53,135 nucleotides of DNA from Brevinematales bacterium (GTDB taxonomy: Bacteria > Spirochaetota > Brevinematia > Brevinematales > Thermospiraceae), in assembly GCA_013177995.1 (NCBI GenBank), contig JABLXN010000015.1, forward strand, positions 1 through 53,135, written 5' to 3'. This document shows, one piece after another, positions 484 through 46,084 of this stretch. Under the pieces are notes generated by a model. That model did not search any database, had not been told where the DNA came from, and saw only the letters and a list, made by a program, of their open reading frames with translations. The position numbers and the translations under genes are program-made. Position 1 is the first letter of the stretch; the number at the start of each line of letters is the position of its first letter.

Positions 484-765
484 TCACAAAATATTACTGG
501 TAGGATCAAAATCAACCCCTATATTTTCCCTTTTGAGATTGTTTTTGTTGTCCATACGATAGATCACAATATAATCCTCTTTTTTGTTGATGATCTTTTC
601 AATCTCTGTCCTGAGAGCCATCAGATTGGCTTCCGTTATCTCCCCCTCAAATACCGATTTCTGGGTATGATGAAGGTATTCCCGGCATTTTTTCATCACC
701 TTGGGGAGTCTTTTCTTGCCTTCTTTCTTTTCTGTTGAGATATCATAGACCAAAATCACATACAT
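484..765 (-). CDS. cas2: CRISPR-associated endonuclease Cas2
   Basis: The 93-residue protein starts MYVILVYDIS, the ferredoxin-like first strand of Cas2 with its conserved acidic residue (D8). The length is normal. Cas2 dimers form the core of the Cas1-Cas2 spacer integrase. The gene begins 3 bp after the cas1 stop and is the last cas gene before the leader. The start ATG follows a weak GGTGG site that overlaps the end of cas1, so translation is probably coupled. Confidence 0.95.
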   Translation of the reverse strand: MYVILVYDISTEKKEGKKRLPKVMKKCREYLHHTQKSVFEGEITEANLMALRTEIEKIINKKEDYIVIYRMDNKNNLKRENIGVDFDPTSNIL

Positions 766-768
766 ATT

Positions 769-1746
769 CTACCACCATATCCTGAAAGACTCATATCTCT
801 CTTCTCCCAAAAGATGTTTGATGAGTTTGTACAATTCGAGCCTGATAATCTTCTGATAGCTCACTTTTCTCTTGAGTTTCTTATGGAAGATGGTTGTCCT
901 CATTTTTTCGTCAAAGGCCTTCACCACTATTTTTCTCCCCTCTTCTTTGAGAGAACAATAATTCAACTCCTTCTCAAAATGTTTTTCTGTGATCTGATTG
1001 GTGTTCAGTAAATCAAAAATAACCCTATCCCCGTATATAGGCTTGAATATCTCGGCTACATCAAGCGCAAGAGAAAACCGTCTATAAAACGGCTCATGAA
1101 GATAGCTAATAGTGGGATTGAGTTGTGTTCTGTAGATCTCTTTTATCACAGAGGTATAAACAAGACTATTGACAAAAGAAATGAGGGCATTCATCATATT
1201 GTTCGGTGGGTGTTTTACCCTTTTCTCAAATTCGATAATTTGCTTGATAACAAGAGGAAAAGCCCCATAATACGTATCCCTGGCATTGCCCTCAATCCCC
1301 ATCAATGAGGCAATATCTCCCTGATTGTCCACTCTTTCAGAGAAACTTTCTATCTGCTCAAGGGTGTCCTGTCCAACAGAGGGATACCTCTTGAGATTGG
1401 TGACAAAGCCGTGCATAGCCCCTCTCACAAACTCTTTGGCTATCTCAAGCCTTTTGGTAGGATCAAGATAATGTTCCGCTTGACGCACAATCACCTCACC
1501 AGAAAGTAAATTCTCCCTCGGATAAAAACTTCCCGTCCACCAGCCATAATAATTGAAGAAATGAAGGACTATTCCTTGTTGGGCAAAGAAATTTATAGCC
1601 TTTGTATTTAAGTCTATTTCTCCAAAAAAATATAAGCTATCAATATCATTTACAGGGATGGGAATATCCCCTTCTTTTGTTTCAAGAAAGATTGAATTGT
1701 CCTTGCGACTTATACGGCCGCTTTTAAAGATGTAATAGTCTTTCAT
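769..1746 (-). CDS. cas1: CRISPR-associated endonuclease Cas1 (Cas1b type)
   Basis: This is the integrase subunit of spacer acquisition. With the ATG at 1746 (MKDYYIFKSG, preceded by GAGGA) it has 325 residues; an upstream TTG would add seven but has no better support and overlaps cas4. The expected metal-binding residues are present: E152 in IEGNAR, H217 in SYLHEP and D229 in LALDVAE. The N-terminal beta domain (about 1-85) and C-terminal alpha domain are both intact. It lies between cas4 and cas2 in the usual order cas4-cas1-cas2, so the adaptation module looks complete and functional. Confidence 0.96.
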   Translation of the reverse strand: MKDYYIFKSGRISRKDNSIFLETKEGDIPIPVNDIDSLYFFGEIDLNTKAINFFAQQGIVLHFFNYYGWWTGSFYPRENLLSGEVIVRQAEHYLDPTKRLEIAKEFVRGAMHGFVTNLKRYPSVGQDTLEQIESFSERVDNQGDIASLMGIEGNARDTYYGAFPLVIKQIIEFEKRVKHPPNNMMNALISFVNSLVYTSVIKEIYRTQLNPTISYLHEPFYRRFSLALDVAEIFKPIYGDRVIFDLLNTNQITEKHFEKELNYCSLKEEGRKIVVKAFDEKMRTTIFHKKLKRKVSYQKIIRLELYKLIKHLLGEERYESFRIWW

Positions 1747-1754
1747 AAAAATCC

Positions 1755-2252
1755 TCAACAGTAACAAAACTCATAGTAGCTACACTTTTTGCAGTAGGGT
1801 TTGTTGATTGGGAGTGGGGCAATTTTTGAACTCAAGATTTTTTCAATCTTTTTTATTGAATCTTTAATCTTAATTCTATCATCTTCAGAAAGCTTAACTT
1901 TTATTACTTTTTTTTGTTTTGGATAATCTATTTCTCCAGTAAACCCGTGGACACCTTTTTTTTCAAGCTCATAAAGATAATATTTCAATTGCCATATATG
2001 CAGCTCTTCCATTTTGTTTGATTTTTTTATTTCATGAACTTTTTTTCTTTTTTTATCTATAAAGTCGATAACCACTTCACCTTCCTCGCCAAATAAGTGA
2101 ATCTCATGTTTTTTTCTCTCATAGGTATACTCAGAAATAATTTTCCCTATTTTTACATCTTCAGAAGTATCTTCCAATTTTATATTCTTTGCAAAAAGCC
2201 ATAAATGCCGCGGGCAATGAAAATAGTAATTAATATAAGTTCCTGTGATCAT
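1755..2252 (-). CDS. cas4: CRISPR-associated exonuclease Cas4
   Basis: The 165-residue RecB-like nuclease has the four cysteines of an iron-sulfur cluster (C13 near the N-terminus; C154, C157 and C163 at the C-terminus), D63, the E74-I-K76 pair and a downstream QxxxY motif (Q88). In type I-B systems Cas4 works with Cas1-Cas2 to select PAM-containing prespacers and trim them. Its ATG overlaps the cas3 stop by 4 bp (ATGA). The length is typical of compact Cas4. Confidence 0.94.
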   Translation of the reverse strand: MITGTYINYYFHCPRHLWLFAKNIKLEDTSEDVKIGKIISEYTYERKKHEIHLFGEEGEVVIDFIDKKRKKVHEIKKSNKMEELHIWQLKYYLYELEKKGVHGFTGEIDYPKQKKVIKVKLSEDDRIKIKDSIKKIEKILSSKIAPLPINKPYCKKCSYYEFCYC

Positions 2253-4870
2253 ATAATATTATCTTCATCATTTTTATTGGTTTTATTTTTATCTTTCAGA
2301 TCTACTATAAAAATATCACTACACCATTCTTTTAATTTTACTATTTTTTTGTTATCATCAGAAATTTCAATCTGCTCTATCCATTGTGTAACAACTCCAT
2401 CTTGTAATTTCTCGAGGTTCCAGTAAGGAACTGAAATAACAAACTCCGCTATGATTTCTTTTTTGAATATTGTGTAGTTTAAATCATTTCTATTAATTAA
2501 ATTTTTAACCTTTTTTATGAAATCATTTTTCTTGGCAATATCAATCACACTGGCATTCATTATTTCTCGGAACATTCTTTGAGCTTCTTCTCTTCTATCA
2601 GACATAAAGCCAGCGTCAAGAAGAGAAAGTGTTTCATAAAATTTGGATAGATATTTACCATTGGGATTTAAAATTTCATATAGCTTTTTAACTAAATCAT
2701 ATTTGCAATATTCAGACATTAAAATCTCTGAATTATCATCAGGAATGGTATCATCTTTTTTCTTTAATTTTTCTTTTTCTGTATTAAGGTTATCATAATA
2801 AGCTTGCCAATTAGTATCATTACCTTCATCTTTTAACAAAATAAGAGTTTTCTCAATCAACTCACTCTCATACACTCTCCCATTTCCAGATTCATAACCT
2901 TCTTTAAAAACCAAAACATAAATATTTGGACTGACTTTACTGGTTCCATTCTGTTTATCTAAATCGAAATTCTTTTTATACCTTCTCAAAACTCTTCCCA
3001 TTCTCTGGACAAGAGCATCCATTGGACAGATTTCGGTATAGAGAATATCTGTATCAATATCGATGGCAGCCTCGACTACCTGAGTGGCTACAAGGATTTT
3101 GCCTTCATTATCGTTTTGATCTTTTGGATTTTTGAATTTATTCTCAATCTCATTCTTGATTCTTTGTTTCTCATTCAAGGTAAATTGAGAGTGAAAAAGA
3201 ATAATGTTTTCATCTTTTATGATATTCTGAGTTTTATTCTTTTCAATATAAGATTTAATTCTTTCATAGATATTCTTTGCTTGTTTTACTGTGCTAAGAA
3301 TAACCAACACTCTTTTTTTATCTTCCGCCTTAGAAACTATATCTTTTATTATTTCCTCTGGTATTGTAAAATCTATTTTTTTGTCTTTTTTCTTGTTAGA
3401 GATATTTACAAAAGATAGCTTGTGTTTTTTAAGATTTTGATACTCTGACTTCTCTTCTTCATAAAGATTGAGTTCATCAAAATGTTTCTCCCCATTGCTT
3501 TTTATTCGATCTTCTATTTCCTTTTTCACATACTCAGGAAGAGTGGCTGTCATCAAGAGAAATTTTCCACCAAGTCTATAGATATCTTCAATAAACTTGA
3601 CAATGATAGCTGTGGCTCTCGGATCATATGCCTGGATTTCATCAATTACAACCCGTGAATAGGAAAAAGTAGCATAGATTCTCTCATATCCAGGAGGTCT
3701 CAAACCATAGGGGAAAAATTGATCCCCAGTAGATACTATAACTGGATAAGAAAGCTGTTTTGCCACATCATATACCTTGAGTCTTTCATAATTATAATCA
3801 TCTCCTAAAAGATAAACATCAGCGTCACTATGAAGAAGTCCAGTTTTGTCTTCACCAAAAATCTTTGTGGCTCTGTCGTAAATCTGCTCAACAGCAGCCC
3901 TCAAGGGAAGAGTATAGAAAAACTTCTCTTCACCACTCCACAGAAAGGCGAACTCGGTTTTCCCACTTCCAGTAGGAGCAATGAGTATAAGGTTGTTTTT
4001 GCAATTATTATCTTTAAGTTTTTCTTCCTGCCAGAGTGATATATCTTGAGTTTTCTCTGTTTTATTTGTTAACTTATTTTTTATTTCTTCTTTTATTTTA
4101 TTTACTATTTGATTATATTCAAGTTTTTCTATTTCAATATTATCTAATATCCCATTTTTTTCTTCATCATTTTTTTGAATAAAGCTATTATCTTCCTCAC
4201 AAAAAGAGGCATAATGATCACACCTCTGCAAAAATCCACTGATAAGAATCCATTTTTTCTTTCCTTCTTCATCTATTTCTAGTCTTTTAGGAAGCCAGTA
4301 GAGTTGATAAGGTGGAATAACATAATCTGCAAAAGAAAGGCCATTGGCTAAACCCTGAAGCATGGCCTTGTTTAATTGGATAATATCATTTTCACCGTTT
4401 ATCAATTCGTTAAGTTCATCTTGTAAATTTTTTACTAATTGTTCTGAAGTATAGTTCAGTAGTTTTTCAAATTTCTCACTTCCATATCTTAAATCCATTT
4501 CAAGAGAGTTTTTCCAGTGATGATAGGCGATAGCTGAAAGAACATATTTAAGATTTTTATCATTGTTTAATAGTTTTTCTTTTAGTTTTTCTTGATTTAT
4601 AAATAACACTGAAGCTAATGAATGATAAATATTAAGTTCTTTATCTACATCGCAAGGCTCGTAATTATTATTTCCCAATACAACAATTTGAAAATATGGT
4701 AAGACCTTCCCTAAATCATGTAGCGTTATAGCCAATTCAATACAATCTTTGATATCATTTTGAGTTGTTTTGTTATTCAACTTATTGAATGTATCTAATA
4801 TATCTTTTGTATGCAGTTTTAGACTTATTCCATTATCTTTTGCCAATATTTGATTTTTATTATCAGCCAT
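2249..4870 (-). CDS. cas3: CRISPR-associated nuclease-helicase Cas3 (HD plus DExD/H)
   Basis: The 873-residue effector nuclease is read from the ATG at 4870 (MADNKNQ, after AAGGGG); an upstream start at 4903 would overlap cas5 far more. The N-terminal HD domain contains LHDLGK (H51-D52). The helicase part contains the Walker A loop APTGSGKTE (K304), a DEIQ motif II, MTATLP motif III and a QRMGRVLRR motif VI. Cas3 is recruited by Cascade to unwind and degrade target DNA. Its first codons overlap the end of cas5 by 8 bp and its stop overlaps cas4. No motif is missing. Confidence 0.95.
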   Translation of the reverse strand: MADNKNQILAKDNGISLKLHTKDILDTFNKLNNKTTQNDIKDCIELAITLHDLGKVLPYFQIVVLGNNNYEPCDVDKELNIYHSLASVLFINQEKLKEKLLNNDKNLKYVLSAIAYHHWKNSLEMDLRYGSEKFEKLLNYTSEQLVKNLQDELNELINGENDIIQLNKAMLQGLANGLSFADYVIPPYQLYWLPKRLEIDEEGKKKWILISGFLQRCDHYASFCEEDNSFIQKNDEEKNGILDNIEIEKLEYNQIVNKIKEEIKNKLTNKTEKTQDISLWQEEKLKDNNCKNNLILIAPTGSGKTEFAFLWSGEEKFFYTLPLRAAVEQIYDRATKIFGEDKTGLLHSDADVYLLGDDYNYERLKVYDVAKQLSYPVIVSTGDQFFPYGLRPPGYERIYATFSYSRVVIDEIQAYDPRATAIIVKFIEDIYRLGGKFLLMTATLPEYVKKEIEDRIKSNGEKHFDELNLYEEEKSEYQNLKKHKLSFVNISNKKKDKKIDFTIPEEIIKDIVSKAEDKKRVLVILSTVKQAKNIYERIKSYIEKNKTQNIIKDENIILFHSQFTLNEKQRIKNEIENKFKNPKDQNDNEGKILVATQVVEAAIDIDTDILYTEICPMDALVQRMGRVLRRYKKNFDLDKQNGTSKVSPNIYVLVFKEGYESGNGRVYESELIEKTLILLKDEGNDTNWQAYYDNLNTEKEKLKKKDDTIPDDNSEILMSEYCKYDLVKKLYEILNPNGKYLSKFYETLSLLDAGFMSDRREEAQRMFREIMNASVIDIAKKNDFIKKVKNLINRNDLNYTIFKKEIIAEFVISVPYWNLEKLQDGVVTQWIEQIEISDDNKKIVKLKEWCSDIFIVDLKDKNKTNKNDEDNII

Positions 4871-5711
4871 TGTGTACCCCTTTGCTTTGATTAAAATCAG
4901 CAAGAAAGACTGGTATATTTAATTCTTTATCGAACAAACATTCTGTATTGATTATCTTCCCGTCATTGAGTTTTGCTCTTATGTATTTATATTCTCTCTG
5001 TCCAGTGTGATTGAAATGACTCTCATAGTTTTTTATAGAAGAAAATGTTGTCAGATTATACACAAGTCCGTCAAAATTATTCCAATTAAGAGTGTTGTTA
5101 TTTTGGGGACTGAAAATCTTTTCAGGTGTCCAAAAAAAATAAGGATATCTCCCATCCTGTCTTTTTATTTCAAAATTATTCTCATCAATAATTGATATGC
5201 CTTTATAAACTATCCAATCCTCAGCCCGTCCAATATGAAGTACCTGCAGTCTTTCTTTAGGATCTTTGAGGAGGTTTTCGAGAAATTCCAATTTATCTTT
5301 TTCATTATGATACAAATAAATAATAAGCTCTACATTTTCCAGAACATCAATCTTCATTGGTGCTTGCCCACCAATATGACCGACTTGCCCATTTTTCTTT
5401 CTATTATTTATTTCACCATAAGTACCAACATGTGCTTCTTTACTTAGATTTCTGAACCAGATCATTTCGGTTATTTTTGCCTCGAATCTTCCAGCAATAG
5501 AAATCTTTAGCTCTTTTATAATCTCGTATGGTCTTATCTTGTTTTGATTAACATCAATTTCTTTTTTTTGATCATCAATTCCACAAGCATTGCACAAAAA
5601 TCCTATTATGGTTGAATAAGGAGGAATTGGATAGGTATGCCTCCTTTGAAAAGTAAAAGGTATTCTGTAATGAGCTTGTGGTTGATATATTATAAGTCTG
5701 AGTATAGGCAT
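4863..5711 (-). CDS. cas5: Cascade subunit Cas5 (type I-B)
   Basis: The 282-residue RAMP protein starts MPILRLIIYQPQAHYRIPF and carries the family-typical IPPYSTIIGFLCNACG stretch (about residues 29-44). Cas5 caps the 5' handle of the crRNA in Cascade. A good ribosome-binding site (AAGGAG) lies about 8 nt before the ATG at 5711. It is separated from cas7 by 88 bp, the only real gap in this operon, in which no promoter is obvious. The Tneap subtype is inferred from resemblance and gene order. Confidence 0.88.
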   Translation of the reverse strand: MPILRLIIYQPQAHYRIPFTFQRRHTYPIPPYSTIIGFLCNACGIDDQKKEIDVNQNKIRPYEIIKELKISIAGRFEAKITEMIWFRNLSKEAHVGTYGEINNRKKNGQVGHIGGQAPMKIDVLENVELIIYLYHNEKDKLEFLENLLKDPKERLQVLHIGRAEDWIVYKGISIIDENNFEIKRQDGRYPYFFWTPEKIFSPQNNNTLNWNNFDGLVYNLTTFSSIKNYESHFNHTGQREYKYIRAKLNDGKIINTECLFDKELNIPVFLADFNQSKGVHNG

Positions 5712-5799
5712 CCATTTCTCTCCTTATTTTATCATTTATCCAGAAACACCTTGAGTTGCTGGTATTATGCTTTCCCTGGCCTTCCACGACGTCTTGTTC

Positions 5800-7889
<2,090 letters not shown>

Positions 7890-7906
<17 letters not shown>

Positions 7907-8999
7907 ATAGTATCCTCCTATCTATAATTGTGGCATATAACTTTAAAATCTTTTGTGCTGTTAAAATAGAGTTGTTTTGATTTTTATACATCTTAATAAA
8001 AGCAGAAATACTTTCATTCTTAAATGATGCTCTTATTATTTTATAAGAAATTTCTTGTAGAAAAGAATAATTTCCAGAAATGACAGAATCAAATATAGCA
8101 AACTCTCCTATATCTGATAATATAGATGCTATTGCTCTATCAGAAATAATATTCACTGTTTCATAAGGAAGAGTATAAAAATCAATTTCATCTCCCTTTT
8201 TTATAACTATCTCAATATTCATAGCATTCCATTGCCCCAGGGTAGTTTGAAGTCTTCTTGTATATTCGATAACACTCATTGCAAGAATTTCTCGTTTTTT
8301 AGTAGAATCCACATCTGTTTTCCCAAAAAGTTCTCTAACTAGCTTGTTGAGTTCATACATCAGTTTAAAAGAAGGGGCATTGATAAATATTTCAGAACCA
8401 TCGGAAAGTTTTGTGAAAGCCAAGTGGTGATGAATGAGAAGAAATGTACAGAAGTGGCATATTTTAAGACCAGAATTAAAATTCCAGTAGGAATTTGGGA
8501 ACTTCTCTGATGGCCCTAAAATTTTATTATGAGCCATATTTAATGTGGAAATTTTAGAAAAGAATTTTTCTTTTTGATCGTTGTCAATTCCATTATCTAA
8601 ATTATCTTTCTTAACTAATAATCCTGATTCGCATAACTCACAATTGTATTGCTCGGTTTTATTTAAATCAGAAAACGCAGCAATAAATTCTTTAAAAACT
8701 TCTTTTTGATTTCCTCCGACATCAATGAAATTAGGATAATATTGATTTTTACCTTTCAAGTTTATAACTTTACCGTTTTCAAAATAATTTTCCTCAACTT
8801 TAATTTTGCTAAACACTTCTTTATTATTTATCGTTGTTGTTCCATCTTCTTTAGTTTCATATTTTGTATTATTTTTTTTACCGTTATTATCATCCAAATA
8901 ATCCTCTCTATCCAAACAACTCAAAAACCCCACCACCCCCGCGTTATACAGCCAGTTTGAGGGATAAAGGGTAATATACTCATTATTATTGTCACTCAT
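7890..8999 (-). CDS. cas8b1: Cascade large subunit Cas8b1/Cst1 (short form)
   Basis: The 369-residue protein starts MSDNNNEYITLYPSNWLYNAGVVGFL; the NWLYNAGVVGFL segment and the two CxxC pairs (CELC near 120, CHFC near 182) are the marks of the Cst1 CXXC-CXXC family, likely a zinc site. Cas8 recognises the PAM and anchors crRNA and Cas3. It starts with a 4-bp overlap of the cas6 stop. It ends earlier than typical family members, and the next ORF probably supplies the missing helical part. Confidence 0.83.
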
Positions 9000-9727
9000 C
9001 CCACCACCTCCAGCATGCCAAAACCCTCTTCTCTCATCTCCCCTATACCCTCCTCGTAGAGCCTCTTGTGCACCTCGGGTGGCGCACTGAGAACAAAGGT
9101 TACTACAAGCCCAGGATAGGTGATATCCGCAGGTTTCGACGAAGAGGCATCTCCATGAAGGATTCGAATAGTACGAAAAACACGATATTGTGGTATCGCG
9201 ACATCATTGACATTGGGAGATAAATTTTTTATATAAAAAAACAAAGCCCCTTTCACTGCTTCATCGTTTTTTCCTATCATAACCTCATACCTTTTATTCT
9301 CTTCTTCCCACTTTTTTATGCATTCTTCTAAAGCTATATATTTCTCTCTTTTCTCTCTCTCTTTGAGAAGAAGTGGCCCTATCGTTTCGTACACAACGAT
9401 ATCAGGGAAGTACTCTCGTGCGGGCAAAAGAAAAGACCGCTCCTTTTTCACCTCTTGTCCCCCAATGGTGAGTTTACTTTCCGACAACAGGTTAGAGATA
9501 GCAATCACCACCCCAGAATCCGATGAAGAAAAGGTGAGCTGAAAAGGCTTTTGAAGAACAAGCTTGCCCCCTTCCCTTTCAAAAGGGAAATACACCGAAA
9601 AAACAAACCTCTTTTTGTACTCGTCGGGGAGGTGCTCCTGCAAAAACTGAGCTATCTCCCACCTGGCTGTTTTGACAGTATCTGCCGACACTTTCCCTGG
9701 AAAGGAAAAAAACATCCGACATCGCAT
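8996..9727 (-). CDS. cas6: CRISPR RNA endoribonuclease Cas6 (first copy)
   Basis: The 243-residue RAMP protein has the glycine-rich C-terminal loop GIGEMREEGFGMLEVVG that identifies Cas6, preceded by YPGLVVTFVLSAPPEV. Cas6 cleaves pre-crRNA in the repeat. I take the ATG at 9727; a TTG at 9739 is the alternative. The mapped-looking promoter would start RNA near 9735, so the message would be almost leaderless and no Shine-Dalgarno is visible. It heads the cas operon and overlaps cas8b1 by 4 bp. A paralogue with the same C-terminal signature lies at 10630-11409. Confidence 0.88.
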   Translation of the reverse strand: MRCRMFFSFPGKVSADTVKTARWEIAQFLQEHLPDEYKKRFVFSVYFPFEREGGKLVLQKPFQLTFSSSDSGVVIAISNLLSESKLTIGGQEVKKERSFLLPAREYFPDIVVYETIGPLLLKEREKREKYIALEECIKKWEEENKRYEVMIGKNDEAVKGALFFYIKNLSPNVNDVAIPQYRVFRTIRILHGDASSSKPADITYPGLVVTFVLSAPPEVHKRLYEEGIGEMREEGFGMLEVVG

Positions 9728-9741
9728 ATTTTTCTGCAAGT

Positions 9742-9770
9742 ATTATACACTTTTATGAGAAAAAAGTCAA
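9742..9770 (-). promoter_or_regulatory. Promoter of the cas operon
   Basis: TTGACT (9770-9765) and TATAAT (9747-9742) are separated by exactly 17 bp. It is close in sequence to the promoter of the second cas6 at 11432-11460, both reading TTGACTTTTTTC at the -35 side. Confidence 0.88.
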
Positions 9771-9926
9771 GAGGTTTTTCAAAAACAATTGAGAAGCCTC
9801 TTTGAAAAACAACGTATCACCTCTTTTCAGAGGCAAGTCAAGCGTAGTCTTGACGATAGGACACAGTAATCCCGAGATAGAAGAACTCACCTCACCCATT
9901 AAAAAGCCAATAGACAAAAAACTATC
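9771..9926. other. Gap between HEPN gene and cas promoter, with several inverted repeats
   Basis: The 156 bp hold an inverted repeat GTTTTTCAAA (9774-9783) / TTTGAAAAAC (9801-9810) directly upstream of the cas -35 box, a small CCTCT/AGAGG hairpin (9820-9833), and GTCAAG/CTTGAC arms (9837-9842, 9849-9854). They may serve as a terminator for the MNT-HEPN unit or as an operator for the cas promoter; the sequence does not decide. Confidence 0.4.
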
Positions 9927-10319
9927 TCACCCATTCTCTACCTCAAGACCAAAATATTTTCTCACCAATCTCCTTATCTCCTTGCAGGTTTCAAAGGACT
10001 CCCTTGCCTCCTCTTCTGTTGTCTCTACACCAGGATATCGAACCTCAACAGCATATTCCGAAAGATTGACTAACTTTTCTTTAAACTCTTGCACTTCTCT
10101 CAAATAAAGGATACAATCCTTCGCTATTTTCCATAAATCGTGTATTTTCCCGATATAGTGATCATTTTCTTGTAGAATAGCCTTCAAGTATTTTTCAACA
10201 CACTGTTGAGAATGAAAACAGATAGCATCGTAAATCGGCTCATCACTTTTTATTTCTTTTACAGCTATTTTAAAATCATTTTCAGCCTTCATCACCCATT
10301 GATGCGTTAGTTCTTTCAT
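9927..10319 (-). CDS. HEPN domain protein, partner of MNT (toxin-antitoxin type)
   Basis: The 130-residue protein shows the COG2250-type HEPN signatures: FHSQQCVEKYLKAIL (about 35-49), KIHDLWKIAKD and AVEVRYPG. It starts with a 4-bp overlap (ATGA) of the nucleotidyltransferase gene, the classical arrangement of HEPN-MNT pairs. I looked for the RNase motif R-x4-6-H and did not find it: no histidine follows any of its arginines at that distance. It therefore belongs to the variant lacking the catalytic pair, and which partner is toxic is open. Confidence 0.85.
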   Translation of the reverse strand: MKELTHQWVMKAENDFKIAVKEIKSDEPIYDAICFHSQQCVEKYLKAILQENDHYIGKIHDLWKIAKDCILYLREVQEFKEKLVNLSEYAVEVRYPGVETTEEEARESFETCKEIRRLVRKYFGLEVENG

Positions 10320-10633
10320 AAATGTATTCCTTTTGTCAATATCTCTTTTATAAAAAAATCATTTTTATTTATTCTTTCCGTTATAAAATCGGGTGTCCTT
10401 ACAAGAATATCCATAGGTTTATCAGGCAACATTTCGTCTATAGCAATTCTGATCCGTGCAGCCTCCTTAGAAAATTTTTCTCTGGTTTCCATAACGACAA
10501 GCAAATCTATATCACTATCCTGGGTAGGATTGCCATACGCATACGACCCAAAAAGGATCACTTTTTCGGCACCAAACTTTTGTTTGATAAAAGAGGCTAT
10601 CTCTTGGAGGGTGTTTTTTATATCTTCACTCAT
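10316..10633 (-). CDS. Minimal nucleotidyltransferase (MNT), partner of HEPN
   Basis: The 105-residue protein has the complete polymerase-beta-like motif: GSYAYG followed ten residues later by DSDIDLLV, the GSx10DxD catalytic signature. In studied HEPN-MNT pairs MNT modifies HEPN by transferring AMP; here that is a family expectation only. Its ATG overlaps the stop of the second cas6 by 4 bp and its stop overlaps the HEPN start, so cas6-MNT-HEPN is one transcription unit. Confidence 0.9.
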   Translation of the reverse strand: MSEDIKNTLQEIASFIKQKFGAEKVILFGSYAYGNPTQDSDIDLLVVMETREKFSKEAARIRIAIDEMLPDKPMDILVRTPDFITERINKNDFFIKEILTKGIHL

Positions 10634-11409
10634 TCCACCACCTCCAGCATCCCAAAGCCCTCACTTCGACGGGCCCCTATTCCCACATCATAGAGATAAC
10701 AGAGAACCTCAGGAGGAGCTTCAAGGGTAATCTCTCCCTTGAGACCAGGATACGTGGTGATATAAGGATGATCAGGGTTTCCCGAACCGTGAACAAGAGG
10801 AATAACCTCCGTTTGAAGAGAGAGAATTTTCACCTCCTGGTTCGTTAACGAAGAAAGACTCATCTCTATAGCCGAACGCAATTCATCAAAGGACGCCTTT
10901 TTCCAGACCTTCCAGTGGTCCCCTGTTTTTCCCTCATCACGGGTATGAAGGGGAGCCCCCTCAGGATAGAGATAAAAATCCCCATCCTCCGGATCCCTCA
11001 CCAAGAAGGGAGAAAGGGTTTTGAAGGTAGCCCGATGGGTAGAAAAGCTTCTCTCAGGCAACAGTCGGCACCGTTCAATCGAAAAAGGACTCCCAAACAA
11101 CACAAAATCCCCCTTCAGAGCCAAAAAGCCGTTATAAACCCGCATGAGAAACTCATAATCACTCGTCGAAAAAAAGAAGCGGAAAAAATCCCCATCTAAA
11201 ACCATATCCCTTCCCCTTTTTTTCAGGGGAAAATACGCCGAAAAGGTGAAGGGTTTCTGGCGATTGCTCGCATACCACACCTCATAAAATCTCTCTCCAT
11301 CCGGGCCACTTCTTTTGATAGCTTCCTTCACAAGAGACAAGAGATACCGTCGAGAATCCGGAGGGATCACAATCCCACGCCTGCTATGAACCTGACAAGA
11401 AAACCGCAT
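10630..11409 (-). CDS. cas6: Cas6-family endoribonuclease (second copy)
   Basis: This is a 259-residue protein from the ATG at 11409 (MRFSCQVHSRRG, preceded by AAGGAAG); a longer frame exists but begins upstream of the promoter. The C-terminus GIGARRSEGFGMLEVVE and YPGLKGEITLEAPPEV match the first Cas6 closely, while the N-terminal half differs. It is not next to cas8 but to MNT-HEPN. It could process another array elsewhere, serve a lost second module, or be a regulator. A histidine stands at position 8; catalytic residues cannot be fixed without alignment. Confidence 0.82.
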   Translation of the reverse strand: MRFSCQVHSRRGIVIPPDSRRYLLSLVKEAIKRSGPDGERFYEVWYASNRQKPFTFSAYFPLKKRGRDMVLDGDFFRFFFSTSDYEFLMRVYNGFLALKGDFVLFGSPFSIERCRLLPERSFSTHRATFKTLSPFLVRDPEDGDFYLYPEGAPLHTRDEGKTGDHWKVWKKASFDELRSAIEMSLSSLTNQEVKILSLQTEVIPLVHGSGNPDHPYITTYPGLKGEITLEAPPEVLCYLYDVGIGARRSEGFGMLEVVE

Positions 11410-11431
11410 GTTTCTTCCTTGTTTTTGTTTC

Positions 11432-11460
11432 ATTATACCTTCTCTTGTGAAAAAAGTCAA
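11432..11460 (-). promoter_or_regulatory. Promoter of the cas6-MNT-HEPN unit
   Basis: TTGACT (11460-11455) and TATAAT (11437-11432), 17 bp apart, end about 22 bp before the ATG at 11409. It is a near-twin of the main cas promoter at 9742-9770. Confidence 0.88.
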
Positions 11461-11491
11461 TGGGTGGGGAAAAATTTCCATACCAAAGCAT

Positions 11492-11587
11492 GGCTATTAC
11501 CCTGTTTCAGTAAAAAACACGTCTCCCGCCCCGGCTATTCCCATGTCTCAGCAAAGCCCCCTCGTGAGCTGAAACAAGGAAATAGCC
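11492..11587. repeat. REP-like hairpin element with an extra single arm
   Basis: A single arm GGCTATTACCCTGTTTCAG at 11492-11510 is followed by a full hairpin (11533-11587) whose arms are GGCTATT...TCTCAGC and GCTGAAACAAGGAAATAGCC. The same arms recur near 14680, 15083, 24599, 25000, 45041, 45924, 46020 and 52788. Confidence 0.75.
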
Positions 11588-11645
11588 TTCTACTATGACC
11601 AAAACGATATCCTCTTCTCATTGCCGGCCGTCTCTTGCTGATTCT

Positions 11646-11688
11646 CCAACTTTATCACCTTTACCCACCTTCAACTTTCAACTGATAC
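11646..11688. repeat. 43-bp dispersed repeat built on AACTTT units
   Basis: The segment starts CCAACTTTAT and ends TTCAACTTTCAACTGATAC. It is matched at 53086-53128 with five mismatches in 43 positions. It lies just upstream of the amylase operator. Confidence 0.6.
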
Positions 11689-11705
11689 ACGATACCTACG
11701 TTGTG

Positions 11706-11719
11706 GTTAAACGTTTAAC
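11706..11719. promoter_or_regulatory. LacI-family operator upstream of the GH13 amylase
   Basis: GTTAAACGTTTAAC is a perfect 14-bp palindrome with the central CG typical of LacI-family sites, 8 bp upstream of the -35 box. The identical sequence occurs at 41116-41129 and 42237-42250 around the lacI-type gene. Confidence 0.85.
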
Positions 11720-11727
11720 TCTTTTTC

Positions 11728-11756
11728 TTGACTTTTTCCCTCCCCTCTCGTATAAT
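11728..11756 (+). promoter_or_regulatory. Promoter of the GH13 amylase gene
   Basis: TTGACT (11728-11733), 17 bp, TATAAT (11751-11756). The LacI-type palindrome lies just upstream of it rather than over the start site, unlike at lacI itself. Confidence 0.9.
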
Positions 11757-11787
11757 CCTTCCCACACTTTCAAAACAAGAAGGAAAG

Positions 11788-14460
11788 ATGAAAAGAAAAA
11801 GTCTCTTGGTGTTAGGAATTGTTGGTGTCATCGGTCTTGTCGTGGGAACAGGATGCACTTCACCGACGAAAAAGTCCACTGAACCTCAAAAACCCATCTC
11901 CCAGACAACCCTTTCTGTCTCTCAAGAAGACAAGGCAAAGTACCTTCATGTCCCAAGCCCTGATTGGCGGGACCAGATTATCTACTTCATCATGATCGAT
12001 CGCTTCAACGACGGAAACCCAGAAAACAATGATATGAAAGCCGGTGAATATGACCCCAAAGAAAACGCCAAATTCTCAGGGGGAGATCTTGCTGGTATTG
12101 CGGCCAAACTGGACTATATCGAGGGACTGGGAGCTACCGCTATCTGGATCACTCCCCCTGTAGCCAATCAATGGTGGGATCCCCTCATCCATTATGGAGG
12201 TTATCACGGCTACTGGGCAAGAGATTTTCTCTCTGTGGATGAGCACTTTGGGACGCTCGAGGATTATCAGGCTCTCTCGGTGATGCTCCACAAGAGAGGC
12301 ATGTACCTCATCCAGGACATCGTCTGTAACCATGTAGGAAACTTCTTCACCTACACCAATACCTATAACCCCTCCAATGTCACAGAAAACCTTGTCATGA
12401 ATACGGGCTCTCTGCCTACAGACAAACCCACTCGCTATCCCTTCGATCAAATAGACCCACGAGACCCCAAACAGAGGGAATTGGGCATTTATCACTGGAC
12501 TCCACCTATCAAAAATTACCAGGATCCCTACCAGAAAATCTACTACCAGCTTTCAGACCTTGACGACCTCAACACCACCAATGAAATCGTCATCAAGGCC
12601 CTCAAAGAGGCTTATACCTACTGGATCATCAACGTCGGGGTGGATGGTTTTCGTATTGATACCATCATGTATGTGGACCACGCCTTCTGGCTCCGTTTCA
12701 TTCATGATAAGGATGAGTCTTCTCCCGGTGTGGCTCTGATGGCCAAAAAATTCAACAAAACCAACTTCTTTGCCTTTGGAGAGGCCTGGTTCAACTCTAC
12801 TCCCTACCAGGATGACTGCGAAAAAGAGGCCAGTTCCTATCTCGGGACAAAAGAAAAACCAGAACTCCACAGCGTCCTCAACTTCGCCCTCCAACAGGAA
12901 ATCAAGCGTGTCTTTGCCGAAGGTGGAGAAACAGCCCTCATGACCTATCGTTTCAACGCCCTGAAGAAGAATTTCCCCGATATTCATCTTCTTTTGAACT
13001 TCATAGACAATCATGATATGAACCGTTTCCTTCAGGGTGCCAGTGTTCCTGCTCTGAAACAGGCCCTCGTCTTTCTCTTCACCATACCCGGCATCCCTGT
13101 GATCTATTACGGAACAGAACAAAAACTCACCGAAACCCGTGCCTCACTTTTCCCAACAGGATACGGTTCCGGTGGAAAGGAACGATTCGCTACCGATGGA
13201 GAAATGTATAGATTCCTTGCCGATCTGGCCAACCTTCGAAAAACCAACGAGGTCTTCCGAAGAGGGGATATCATACCCATCAAGGATGACCCTACAGGTC
13301 CAGGGGTCTTTGCCTATCTCATGAAAACCACAAAAGATACTGCCGTGGTGATCTTCAATACCTCTGAAGAAGACACCCTTGTGGACAACCTTGACCTTGG
13401 AACAAAAAAGCCCTCTGTTCTTGAGGTGCTGTATTCCACCCGAAAGCTCCAGAAACCCCTTATCACTGACAACTCAGGGAAACTTTCCTTCCTCCTCAAG
13501 GGAAGATCCACCATCGTCGCCATGATCCGAGAGACCAATACCACCCTTACGCCTTCTGCTTCCCTTTCCTTTGATATTCCCAAGGCTCGTACCCTCTCTA
13601 CCAACATCATCCTCAAAGGCAAGGCAAGTGGTGTCTCCAACGTTCTCCTTGTCATTGATGGACGAATCAGTTCTGGTATCCCCGCCTCCCTTAACGACAA
13701 AGGAGAATGGACTGTTCTTCTCCCAGTCGAGTCATTAGACAACGGGAATCACCGCTGTACCATTTACGGAGGGATAGCCGGCGGAGATTTCGTGGTCAGT
13801 CCCACCTATACCTTTGAAGTCAAGATAGAGTACAAAAAGGTACTTTCTGTCAAAGATCCTGTGGGTGATGACAAAGGACCATTTGGAAATTATCTCTACC
13901 CTACCGATGCCTCTTTCAACCATCAGATGGATATTGAAAGTGTCGATATTTTCCGCGCCAGAAACAACCTCATGATTACCCTCACCATGGCCAAACCTAT
14001 CAGTACCGTCTGGAATCCCAAAAATGGTTTTGACCATGTCACTTTCTATATCTACTTCTCACTCCCCGGGAAAGAAGGGGGCTCTACCGTCCTTCCTCGT
14101 CAACAGGCAAAAGCCCCGGCTAACTTTGCCTGGCACTATATGAGCATGGTCGGTGGCTGGAACAACAACCTCTTCTCCAGCAAAGGCGCCAGTGAAAAAG
14201 ACTATGGAACACCGGTAAGTGCTTCTCCCAAAATCATCGTCAATGTGGAGAAGCGTCAGATCACCCTGCGCTATCCTTCTGCCGCCTTTGAAAACCCCAA
14301 AGACATTTCTGGCATGAAAATCTATATCACTACCTGGGATTATGACGGCATGGAGAGCGCCAACCGCCCCATTGAACCAGAACCCAAGGCGTATCGTATG
14401 GGTGGAGATCCTGCGGGCCCCATGATTATGGACGACGTGGGTCCTCTCACCCTGCCCTGA
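11788..14460 (+). CDS. Secreted lipoprotein alpha-amylase (GH13) with glucodextranase-like C-terminal module
   Basis: The ATG at 11788 follows AAGAAGGAAAG; longer frames would start inside the promoter. Residues 1-24 form a lipoprotein signal peptide ending VVGTGC. The GH13 barrel has region I DIVCNH, region II GFRIDT (nucleophile D291), region III GEAW (acid E332) and region IV FIDNHD (D410), so it should be active on alpha-1,4-glucans. After a beta domain and a spacer with an Ig-like character comes a C-terminal module starting DPVGDDKGPFGNYLYPTD, which resembles the C-terminal binding domain of glucodextranases. 890 residues. Probably lipid-anchored at the cell surface or in the periplasm. 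Confidence 0.93.
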   Translation: MKRKSLLVLGIVGVIGLVVGTGCTSPTKKSTEPQKPISQTTLSVSQEDKAKYLHVPSPDWRDQIIYFIMIDRFNDGNPENNDMKAGEYDPKENAKFSGGDLAGIAAKLDYIEGLGATAIWITPPVANQWWDPLIHYGGYHGYWARDFLSVDEHFGTLEDYQALSVMLHKRGMYLIQDIVCNHVGNFFTYTNTYNPSNVTENLVMNTGSLPTDKPTRYPFDQIDPRDPKQRELGIYHWTPPIKNYQDPYQKIYYQLSDLDDLNTTNEIVIKALKEAYTYWIINVGVDGFRIDTIMYVDHAFWLRFIHDKDESSPGVALMAKKFNKTNFFAFGEAWFNSTPYQDDCEKEASSYLGTKEKPELHSVLNFALQQEIKRVFAEGGETALMTYRFNALKKNFPDIHLLLNFIDNHDMNRFLQGASVPALKQALVFLFTIPGIPVIYYGTEQKLTETRASLFPTGYGSGGKERFATDGEMYRFLADLANLRKTNEVFRRGDIIPIKDDPTGPGVFAYLMKTTKDTAVVIFNTSEEDTLVDNLDLGTKKPSVLEVLYSTRKLQKPLITDNSGKLSFLLKGRSTIVAMIRETNTTLTPSASLSFDIPKARTLSTNIILKGKASGVSNVLLVIDGRISSGIPASLNDKGEWTVLLPVESLDNGNHRCTIYGGIAGGDFVVSPTYTFEVKIEYKKVLSVKDPVGDDKGPFGNYLYPTDASFNHQMDIESVDIFRARNNLMITLTMAKPISTVWNPKNGFDHVTFYIYFSLPGKEGGSTVLPRQQAKAPANFAWHYMSMVGGWNNNLFSSKGASEKDYGTPVSASPKIIVNVEKRQITLRYPSAAFENPKDISGMKIYITTWDYDGMESANRPIEPEPKAYRMGGDPAGPMIMDDVGPLTLP

Positions 14461-14550: not shown

Positions 14551-14698
14551 GTCGTTCCACATATGAAACTGAATACCTATTTTCACATTTCTTATGAACA
14601 GGGAAATAACACAAAAGCTTTCTATTCTGATGCCTATTGAAAAAAAGAGTCATGCTTAAAAACATTATGGTAAGATAGAGCTATTACCTTGTTTCAGC
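14551..14698 (+). repeat. Dispersed intergenic module A, copy 1
   Basis: The module starts GTCGTTCCACA, contains ACTGAATACCTATTTTCACA and ends with the hairpin arm GCTATTACCTTGTTTCAGC. Related copies lie at 25000-25179 (reverse) and 44699-45096 (interrupted by a MITE). No gene of its own. Confidence 0.75.
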
Positions 14699-14776
14699 CT
14701 GATGGGGGATAGCTTTCTCTTTTGTTCAAACGAGTTGTGTGTATTTGTATGTCCTGTGGTGTGTTATAGGTCTTTT

Positions 14777-14979
14777 GAGACCTTTGCACGAATGTGCAAA
14801 AGGTCTCAAAAAAGTAATAAAGAAACAAAAATTAGTATCAAAATATTCCGTGCTGTAATAAATAAACCAATTTTTTTGAATAAAAAAGACAAATCGGCCC
14901 TTGTAAACAGAAAAATCGGGGTTTCAGGGGCGTAGCCCCTGACCCAGATAGGGGAAGAAAACACCCGTGCAAGGGTCTC
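14777..14979 (+). mobile_element. MITE-like element, copy 1 (203 bp)
   Basis: It starts GAGACCTTTGCACG and ends CGTGCAAGGGTCTC, so its ends are inverted repeats. The first 31 bp also form a hairpin by themselves, and near the right end lies CAGGGGC-GTA-GCCCCTG. It has no coding capacity. CTTTT flanks it on both sides, a possible 5-bp target duplication. Other copies are at 44760-44960 and 45641-45841, with a right-end fragment at 52824-52879. Confidence 0.82.
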
Positions 14980-15055
14980 CTTTTGTGTGAGAGAAGTGGA
15001 GAGCTGGGGTGTTGCTGAAACATGGCAAGAGCTGTGGTTTTGTTCTGGATAGGGG

Positions 15056-15073
15056 AGGTTAAACATTTAACCT
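15056..15073. promoter_or_regulatory. Operator-like palindrome inside the repeat island
   Basis: AGGTTAAACATTTAACCT has the same arms as the LacI-type operators but CA instead of CG in the centre. No gene starts next to it. A partial relative lies near 24555-24568. It may be a chance resemblance or a weak site. Confidence 0.35.
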
Positions 15074-15106
15074 CTGGCTTTTGCTGAAACAAGGTCATAG
15101 CCTTTT

Positions 15107-24159: not shown

Positions 24160-24560
24160 ATTCCTTTTTTCACGAAGCGCTCCCGCGCGGGGCAAAAGGG
24201 GCTTCGCCCCTTTTGAAAACCCCACCCCGCCCCTGCGGCGGTTTCTGTAGCCACCCACCTGTCTCCTGTAGTGCGGGCTAGAACAAAAAACTGTAGCGCC
24301 GCTTTCTTCTGTAGCCGCCCGGGGACAGCCCTCCATGTCTGACCCCGGGCTTCCTCGCCACCTCCTGTGGCTCGGCCATCGGCAAGAGAATGAGGCCTTC
24401 TCCCACCAGCCCACAGGGCTTCTGTTCCCACGGGGCTTCTCTAACGGCGCACCGCAGGCAGGGGCGGGGGCTATGGCGATGTTTCAGCAAGAAAAAGACT
24501 TTCCGGGACACGAGGGTTCAGGAACTATGCCCTTCTTTCAGCAAAAGTCCTCTGGTTAAA
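24160..24560. repeat. GC-rich repeat block 2 (reverse relative to block 1)
   Basis: It contains GCCGCCCGGGGACAGCCCTC and CTGACCCCGGGCTTCCTCG, which are the reverse complement of parts of block 1. Hairpin arms with TGTTTCAGCAAG occur near 24480 and TTTCAGCAAAAG near 24540. No credible gene. Confidence 0.68.
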
Positions 24561-24598
24561 CATTTAGCCCGTGTCTATACAAACACCACATCTCTCTT

Positions 24599-24654
24599 GC
24601 TATGACCATTTCTCAGCAAAAAACCTTCTCCCTGAGCTGAAACATGGTGATAGC
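24599..24654. repeat. REP-like hairpin element
   Basis: Arms GCTATGACCATTTCTCAGC and GCTGAAACATGGTGATAGC face each other across a short loop. The two arms carry matched changes relative to other copies (ATGACC with GGTGAT being nearly complementary), which suggests the folded form matters. Confidence 0.7.
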
Positions 24655-24688
24655 AAAAAACATCCTCCACCCCAGTGAAGAATGAAAA

Positions 24689-24995
24689 GCCCTATCACCA
24701 TGTCTCAACAAAAGCCCCGCGGCTACACTTCGGTGGGCTTGTGGGGAAAAGCAACAGAAGATATCGCCCCGGGTGCCTCCTGCACCCTCACTTCAAAAGG
24801 ACTTCCCCCTTATGACAAAGGGCACACGACCACAAAAGCGGCCCGGTAAGCCTCCTGAGCAAAGTCGAAGGGAATATTGAGCGAAGTCGAAGTGGATTAC
24901 AGAAAAAAGGAGTAAAAGAACAGGTCCTTCTCTCACCAGCTTGTAGGGCTTTTTCCCCAGCAGGGTCTTTTTAGATATGGCACCGCGATAGGGGC
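24689..24995. repeat. Mosaic repeat block with single hairpin arm
   Basis: It starts with an arm CCCTATCACCATGTCTCAAC, then carries a GC-rich stretch and a GAGCGAAGTCGAAGTGG direct repeat (near 24868 and 24890) that is also seen in reverse near 45195-45220. No gene seen. Confidence 0.55.
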
Positions 24996-24999
24996 GATA

Positions 25000-25179
25000 G
25001 CTATTCCTTTGTTTCAGCAAAAACCAATTGTTTTGCTGAAACAGGGTAATAGCCATATCTTGCTGTAGTGTTTTCAAACGCAACTCTTTTTTCACCTGAC
25101 ATCAGAACAGAAAGCTTTTGTATTATTTCCCTATTCAGGAAATGTGAAAATAGGTATTCAGTTTCATGTGTGGAACGAC
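25000..25179 (-). repeat. Dispersed intergenic module A, copy 2, with REP-like hairpin (25000-25053)
   Basis: The hairpin has arms GCTATTCCTTTGTTTCAGC and GCTGAAACAGGGTAATAGC. Adjoining it, read on the minus strand from 25179, is module A: GTCGTTCCACACATG, ACTGAATACCTATTTTCACA, ACAAAAGCTTTCTGTTCTGATG. Confidence 0.75.
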
Positions 25180-44698: not shown

Positions 44699-45096
44699 GG
44701 TATCGTTCCACAAAGCAAATCGAATACCTATGTTCCCCTTTCATAAAAAGAGAAATATCGAGACCTTTGCACGAATGTGCGAAGGTCCCAAAAAAGTAGT
44801 AAAAAACAAAAAATAGTATAAAAATGTTCCTTAACGTAATAAATAAAATTATTCCTTTGAACAAAAAAAGACAAATAAGCCCTTGTAAATGGAAAAAGCG
44901 GGGAAGAGGGGCGTAGCCCCTGACCCAGATAGGGGAAGAAAACACCCGTGCAAGGGTCTCAAAAAGAGAAATATCACAAAAGTTTTTCTGTTATGGTGCT
45001 TATTGAAAAAAGTTGCCCTTGAAAGCATTACGGCAAGATAGGACTATTATCCTGTTTCAGCTAAACCATTGTTCTTTGCTGAAACAAAGTCATAGC
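44699..45096 (+). repeat. Dispersed intergenic module A, copy 3, split by a MITE
   Basis: The left part (44699-44759) has ATCGTTCCACA and GAATACCTATG; the right part (44961-45096) has ATCACAAAAGTTTTTCTG and ends with a hairpin (45041-45096; arms CTATTATCCTGTTTCAGC and GCTGAAACAAAGTCATAGCC). The MITE at 44760-44960 lies between. Confidence 0.75.
44760..44960 (+). mobile_element. MITE-like element, copy 2 (201 bp)
   Basis: Same ends GAGACCTTTGCACG...CGTGCAAGGGTCTC as copy 1. The sequence AAAAAGAGAAATATC is found on both sides (44745-44759 and 44961-44975), which would be a 15-bp target duplication. Confidence 0.85.
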
Positions 45097-45109
45097 CATT
45101 GCCCTGCCG

Positions 45110-45590
45110 TGGTGCCATATCCACAAAGCCTCTCCCGAAAAAGAAGTTTTGAAGGCTAGTGAGAGAAGGTCCTGTTCTTTTATCTTTCTTCTGTACTCCA
45201 CTTCGACTTCGCTCAGTATCTACCTGGCCGCTTTTGCGGTGGTGAAAAGAACTTTTTGTACTGCTAAAACGGGGAAGTCCTTCCGAAGTGAGGGTGCAGG
45301 AGGCATCCGGGGCGACATCTTCTGTTGCTTTTCCCCACAAGCCCACCGAAGCGTAGCCGCGGGGACCCCGCCTGAGCGGGGAATCGGCGAAGCAAGGTGG
45401 GCGCTATGCTTCCGAAGTCAGGAGGACGAGTTGATGTCGCCCCGGAGGAAGGACTTCCCCTGGAAGAAGAAGTTTTTCTTTGCCCGCAAAAGCGGCCTAT
45501 TGTCCGTCCGAGGCGCATGCGTAGCATGCGACGAGGACAACTCCCCATTTGTCCCGCGCGGAAGCGCTTCGTAGAAAAAAAAGAAAATAA
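45110..45590. repeat. GC-rich repeat block 3
   Basis: It shares GAAGTCAGGAGGACGAGTTG, GGAGGAAGGACTT and GCATGC-GTA-GCATGC (about 45519-45533) with block 1 and the right-edge block, and the TTCGACTTCGCTCA motif with 24868-24890. No credible gene. Confidence 0.68.
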
Positions 45591-45599
45591 GTAACAAAA

Positions 45600-45893
45600 A
45601 GAGCCCAAAACTGAAAGAGAAAAGATGGTTGAACAAGTATGAGACCTTTGCACGAATGGGCAAAGGTCTCAAAAAAGCAATAAAGAAACAAAAAGTAGTA
45701 TCAAAATACTCCTTGCCGTAATAAATAAACCAATTTTTTTGAATAAGAAAGACAAACCAGCCCTTGTAAAAAGAAAAATCGGGGAAGAGGGGCGTAGCCC
45801 CTGACCAAGACAAAGGAAGAAAGCACCCGCGCAAGGGTCTCAAGTATTCAGTTTTTGTGTGAAGATATCCATTCTGTATGAATGTGGAACGAC
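45600..45893 (-). repeat. Dispersed intergenic module B, copy 3, split by a MITE
   Basis: It is the same module as 15605-15710; the MITE at 45641-45841 lies inside it and the sequence AAGTAT is present on both sides. Confidence 0.8.
45641..45841 (+). mobile_element. MITE-like element, copy 3 (201 bp)
   Basis: Ends GAGACCTTTGCACG and CGCGCAAGGGTCTC, flanked by AAGTAT on each side (45635-45640 and 45842-45847). Comparison with the uninterrupted module at 15605-15710 gives the empty site. Confidence 0.88.
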
Positions 45894-45923
45894 AATGCTC
45901 TTGAAAAGATAACCACAAAACAC

Positions 45924-45979
45924 GGCTATTATCATGTTTCAGCAAAAACCTCTCTGGTTCGCTGAGATAGGGTAATAGC
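45924..45979. repeat. REP-like hairpin element
   Basis: Arms GGCTATTATCATGTTTCAGC and GCTGAGATAGGGTAATAGC around a short loop. Confidence 0.7.
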
Positions 45980-46019
45980 AAAAGCATGCCTTGTCCCTCG
46001 AAAGCCCTTAGCGAGGTAC

Positions 46020-46084
46020 AGCTATCCCCTTATTTCAGTAAAACACTCCCGAAACACTCCACAAGCTGAAACAAGGGAATAGCC
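46020..46084. repeat. REP-like hairpin element
   Basis: Arms AGCTATCCCCTTATTTCAG and GCTGAAACAAGGGAATAGCC; it lies between the repeat island and the pheT terminator. Confidence 0.7.

Follow-up and report, generated by a model that had tools for sequence, protein, structure and literature searches.

A minimal nucleotidyltransferase (MNT) gene and a HEPN gene follow a cas6 gene beside a complete type I-B CRISPR locus in the stretch of DNA analysed here (the window, 53,135 nt, from a Brevinematales bacterium). Our preferred reading, which draws on comparative evidence and to which we give a probability of slightly more than one half, is that a class II HEPN/MNT pair became lodged at the type I-B cas6-cas8 joint and persists there as a toxin-antitoxin-like passenger, with the joint itself acting as a recombination port. 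That the arrangement exceeds chance is confirmed: a genome-wide search found no PF05168 HEPN besides that of the window, other families show the layout again, and a cas-like ORF within 1.5 kb is absent from all 43 related HEPN loci, relatives in Acidobacteriota being likewise standalone. If this reading holds, the widespread, biochemically uncharacterised class II HEPN/MNT modules would gain a concrete, testable setting, protein-based toxin-like pairs would be placed at the same cas6-cas8 seam as the archaeal RNA guard CreTA, and a ribosome-binding recombination joint could be proposed as a mechanism for the shuffling of type I-B effector modules.

The locus and its type I-B context

The three genes lie on the minus strand where the initial annotation had placed them, each matching its family above the cut-off (58.65 bits for TIGR01877, 21 bits for PF01909 and 22 bits for PF05168), and are chained by 4-bp ATGA overlaps, i.e. 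cas6-2 with MNT at 10630-10633 and MNT with HEPN at 10316-10319. The features of the locus are:

11432-11460, minus strand: putative promoter of cas6-2, MNT and HEPN, TTGACT-17-TATAAT, 11/12 in a consensus scan
10630-11409, minus strand: cas6-2, the 'second cas6' of the initial annotation (TIGR01877, 93.7 bits)
10630-10653, minus strand: cas6 tail or joint, GGGATGCTGGAGGTGGTGGAATGA, with Shine-Dalgarno GGAGGTG at 10639-10645 and the ATGA stop-start overlap (pattern search, codon conservation)
10316-10633, minus strand: MNT (PF01909, 53.5 bits, and alignment)
9927-10319, minus strand: HEPN of the PF05168 type, class II (88.3 bits)
9817-9836, minus strand: weak terminator-like hairpin 3' of HEPN, from a scan with about the same number expected by chance
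9742-9770, minus strand: putative promoter, TTGACT-17-TATAAT, ahead of cas6-1 and the effector operon (seen in the scan and as 34-nt repeat D7)
8996 to about 9727, minus strand: cas6-1, a divergent Cas6 adjoining cas8b
8987-9028, minus strand: the joint in a second copy, where cas6-1 ends and cas8b starts; its 42 nt match 10621-10662, around the cas6-2/MNT seam, at 88% identity
7890-8999, minus strand: cas8b, here named type 1 (PDLC01204, E 5e-101)
484-7906, minus strand: cas11b, cas7, cas5, cas3, cas4, cas1 and cas2 (domain searches)
156-381, no strand: CRISPR array, 4 repeats of 29-31 nt, spacing 65

The complete type I-B locus claimed alongside the triplet was likewise recovered, domain searches of the window giving the order cas6-cas8b-cas11b-cas7-cas5-cas3-cas4-cas1-cas2 plus the array; with cas8b, cas7, cas5, cas3, cas6, cas4, cas1, cas2 and an array all present, it belongs to type I-B. 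A whole-genome search found two Cas6 genes, both in this locus. The gene heading the MNT-HEPN operon, which had been taken for the second one, is in fact the ordinary cas6, with orthologues elsewhere (66% identical to G001, of the same genus, and 52% to G262), while cas6-1, located between HEPN and cas8b, is divergent, with 31% identity at best and a long branch in the Cas6 tree; to cas6-2 it is 32% identical. The strong promoter ascribed to this operon is indeed near consensus, but since the promoter of cas6-1 is equally good, it is not peculiar to the MNT-HEPN genes.

The GC content of the locus is a mosaic, with 48% in cas6-2, 35-36% in MNT and HEPN, 44% in cas6-1, about 30% from cas8b to cas4 and 39% in cas1. 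As a separate observation, an interspersed repeat, GCTGAAACAnnGnnATAGCC, is present in 15 copies against 0.02 expected, often as inverted pairs, at window positions 11492-11587, 14679-15102, 24469-25054, 45042-46084 and 52788, three copies lying immediately upstream of the cas6-2 promoter. The same genome also carries a second CRISPR locus (G000:C1:115000-133000, L150), whose repeats, about 36 in number, are of another type, and which has cas1 and cas2.

Recurrence of the pair and its gene partners

The initial annotation had proposed a genome search for the cas6-MNT-HEPN triplet together with I-B operons. Such triplets occur again in I-B loci from three families of spirochaetes, and therefore the objection raised there, of a triplet present only here by a recent rearrangement, fails. 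The same MNT-HEPN lineage was found at the cas6-cas8 seam in five genomes, all of one phylum (Spirochaetota); the pair is intact in three (the window, G055 and G122) and decayed in two (G001 and G047). Most of the genomes were assembled from metagenomes, and the joint is where some of the contigs stop. In G001, what follows cas6 is a remnant of MNT and HEPN carrying two in-frame deletions, and after it comes promoter-like sequence at the contig end, the I-B array and cas1-cas2 sitting on a different contig. The gene order is cas6, an MntA-type MNT, MNT, HEPN, cas8b, cas11b, cas7, cas5, cas3 and cas4 in G055; cas6, MNT, HEPN with an internal deletion, MntA, HepT and cas8b in G047; and cas6, MNT, HEPN and another cas8 in G122.

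Across 393 Spirochaetota genomes the HEPNs of the intact pairs scored 153-261 bits and the next HEPN 98. In a tree of concatenated MNT and HEPN, the four pairs with an intact MNT formed one clade (99.5/99) versus 22 relatives, and this tree shows the pair to be monophyletic among the relatives sampled; in a larger, quick HEPN-only tree the pairs also group together, there without support, i.e. with the clade unresolved. No member of the lineage linked to cas genes turned up in the 136 Aquificota and 396 Acidobacteriota genomes searched. Viral contigs and plasmids were considered as carriers and rejected, the viral contigs searched yielding no Cas6 or HEPN relative and the plasmid collection one weak partial HEPN match and two weak Cas6 matches, both of the latter in chromosome-sized records. 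No earlier description of this arrangement was found in the open-access literature searched.

The phylogenetic relationship of the Cas6 proteins differs from that of the pair. In the Cas6 tree the window groups with G055 and G047 groups with G122, the two groups separating at 100/100, and MNT is 56% identical between the window and G047 versus 30% for Cas6, while G047 and G122 share 58% in Cas6 and 49% in MNT. Furthermore, most Cas6 relatives within the same clades lack the pair. These comparisons show the pair switching between Cas6 clades, i.e. not forming a Cas6-specific trio; the ATGA coupling to Cas6 stressed in the initial annotation is real, but a module specific to Cas6 is weakened by the presence of MNT-HEPN behind two divergent clades. 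The constant downstream partner is the type 1 cas8b, which the window, G055 and G047 all have; in G122 a remnant of it, IKLYPSNWLYNAGVVG, then a stop, stands immediately 3' of HEPN. The pair thus appears, on gene order, to be tied to the seam ahead of the type 1 cas8b rather than to Cas6.

Other HEPN/MNT pairs reside elsewhere in such operons. A PF05168 HEPN and its MNT lie between cas1 and cas2 of a I-B operon in G134 (L119:1328-2043), and a class I-like pair lies between cmr1 and cmr3 of a type III-B module in G055 (L152:5680-6458), where the HEPN has RNTITHDY, fitting RX4HXY, with a Pfam match below the cut-off; this module precedes cas1, on contigs apparently following the G055 cas4. Together with the MntA-HepT pair that is also inside the operon of G047, they indicate that HEPN/MNT pairs entered these operons independently and repeatedly.

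The cas6 tail as a probable ribosome-binding site and joint

The last 24 bases of cas6 (pattern GGcATGCTGGAGGTGGTGGrATGA) are conserved at the DNA level. When one mismatch was allowed, the pattern was found at nine sites in 8 of the 393 genomes, compared with none for the reversed pattern used as a control; all nine are cas6 3' ends, behind both Cas6 clades, and are followed by MNT or by one of three unrelated cas8 types. The tail codons are identical in 58-100% of pairs (100% for Glu GAG, 76% for Val GTG and 68% for Leu CTG), the median for conserved columns being 41%, and this constancy holds even in a gene with a GC3 of 0.18. GGAGGTG is complementary to the anti-Shine-Dalgarno sequence, and since this perfect Shine-Dalgarno stands five bases upstream of the ATG, the final cas6 codons probably serve to bind the ribosome for the gene that follows. 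The tight cas6-MNT coupling would then arise because the cas6 3' end carries a conserved ribosome-binding site that serves any downstream gene.

There are several signs of exchange at this joint, among them the likeness of the two seams in the window and the mosaic GC content given above. The 1742 bp at window positions 7287-9028 are 99.7% identical to G262, a genome of another family, and the identity breaks off within the cas6 tail, at 9028; upstream of the shared block G262 has a cas6-2-like gene. Alternatively, the match to G262 could reflect an assembly chimera formed at the tail that both share. In G055, a 5' remnant of cas8b between the cas6 and MNT genes ends in GGGGGTGGTGGGATGA, which resembles the cas6 tail, and the end of the HepT gene in G047 is a copy of that tail, identical to the window in 24/24 bases. 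In G015 a GGCT/AIG2-like ORF (L117:735-1232; family assigned by eye) separates a damaged cas6 from a broken cas8b. Because of these remnants and the nearly identical block ending at the cas6 tail, the joint looks like a site of recombination at which cassettes are swapped in and out. The end of the HEPN in the window (FGLEVENG) was also compared with the cas6 tail, but their similarity was dropped as unproven.

Class of the pair and competing explanations

The catalytic motif of MNT is intact in the alignment, i.e. GSX10DXD (D41, D43) and D75. Residue counts over 42 HEPNs show that the window HEPN has no R-X4-6-H, and thus lacks RX4HXY; H60, R94, Y95 and P96 are each invariant in all 42 relatives and H36 is present in 34, the window HEPN keeping all of them. 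A single-sequence structure prediction of HEPN reached a pLDDT of 43 and was not used. In class I HEPN/MNT systems, MntA AMPylates the Tyr of RX4HXY in the RNase HepT, whereas class II systems (PF05168) keep GSX10DXD and the Tyr but not the RNase motif, and as of 2020 had not been studied biochemically (Yao et al., PMC7641770); a conserved His ahead of the motif has been suggested as a possible alternative HEPN active site (Anantharaman et al., PMC3710099). The window pair, a PF05168 HEPN next to a PF01909 MNT with GSX10DXD and the conserved Tyr, belongs to class II (PF05168/PF01909; COG2250/COG1708), sharing also the MNT-first order and the ATGA overlap; unlike the class II pairs described in the papers searched, it lies inside a cas locus at the cas6-cas8 joint. 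It resembles type VII toxin-antitoxin systems (HepT/MntA) in gene order and MNT motif but differs from them in lacking RX4HXY, scoring 33.6 bits with the MntA model (cut-off 60) and giving no HepT match. The initial description as a toxin-antitoxin-type module has to be qualified accordingly: for a class without the RNase motif or a biochemical test known in 2020, 'toxin' is an inference.

Compared with CARF-HEPN effectors (Csx1/Csm6), which also bring HEPN into CRISPR loci, the window HEPN has no CARF domain, belongs to a separate HEPN family and is found in a type I locus. CreTA/CrePA is likewise a toxin-like module in a cas operon, and in H. hispanica CreTA lies between cas6 and cas8 (PMC8501985); unlike there, the antitoxin candidate of the window is a protein, and no antitoxin RNA resembling CRISPR turned up. 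A guide with degenerate CRISPR repeats on its flanks (creA) was not detected above simulated sequence in 8900-12000, where the best repeat-like match was 17/29 and simulated maxima were 15-19, although very degenerate repeats could escape; CRISPR spacers gave no strong match to the module, and weak short ones at most.

Under the preferred reading, a toxin-antitoxin-like passenger at the joint, MNT would be translated together with Cas6 from the Shine-Dalgarno/ATGA signal in the cas6 tail and would adenylylate HEPN, probably at the conserved Tyr of RYP, rendering it harmless. If the locus were lost or disrupted, MNT would be exhausted first and HEPN would arrest growth, so that the locus would be retained in the population; the pair would be bound to the operon, not to Cas6 activity, and the joint would serve as a port for the exchange of effector cassettes and HEPN/MNT cassettes alike. 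Decay took the HEPN and spared the MNT in G047, and G055 kept MntA without HepT. This is the pattern that a toxin and its antitoxin would leave, though two cases are few, and it favours a passenger of the addiction or abortive type whose translation starts from the tail of cas6. Alternatively, the pair might be a mere passenger, hitch-hiking at a recombination-prone joint and benefiting neither CRISPR nor the host. Two of the five genomes, G001 and G047, carry it in decayed form, which shows that the pair is dispensable, and both the GGCT-like ORF occupying the same joint in G015 and the HEPN/MNT pairs located elsewhere in operons fit this explanation; yet one lineage has been held at the same joint at 44-56% identity with its MNT catalytic residues intact, which suggests long-term selection, and we regard the absence of any benefit as unlikely.

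We see still less reason to favour a guard of CRISPR, in which a working Cascade and crRNA would silence the pair, as in CreTA/CrePA, and phage or mutation disabling Cascade would lead to death or arrest. Such CRISPR control is possible and is suggested by position alone, the pair sitting at the seam used by the H. hispanica CreTA; RNA guards require Cas6 and Cascade, and the window pair has its own predicted promoter. However, neither the repeat search nor the spacer comparison gave the signals expected of such a guard, and since MNT is itself a plausible antitoxin, repression by CRISPR would be unnecessary. Least probable of all is a tripartite module in which Cas6, MNT and HEPN jointly act on RNA, e.g. 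on crRNA ends: the ATGA overlaps amount to translational coupling and all three families handle RNA or nucleotides, but the pair moves between Cas6 clades that share only about 30% identity, is missing beside most Cas6 relatives in them, and owes its coupling to the cas6 tail, whichever gene follows.

Extending the preferred reading of a passenger at an exchangeable joint, one may tentatively speculate, against the odds, that the cas6 3' end is a dedicated exchange port, its LEVV codons doubling as ribosome-binding site and as recombination joint for cas8 and HEPN/MNT cassettes, and that the resident pair is a protein counterpart of CreTA making the swapped-in immunity addictive.

As separate observations on cas6 genes, I-B operons headed by two tandem cas6-like genes were seen in Bacteroidota and Bipolaricaulota (L042, L043 and L045), and an identical cas6 occurs in MAGs labelled as two different phyla (L031 and L032), possibly through contamination or very recent transfer.
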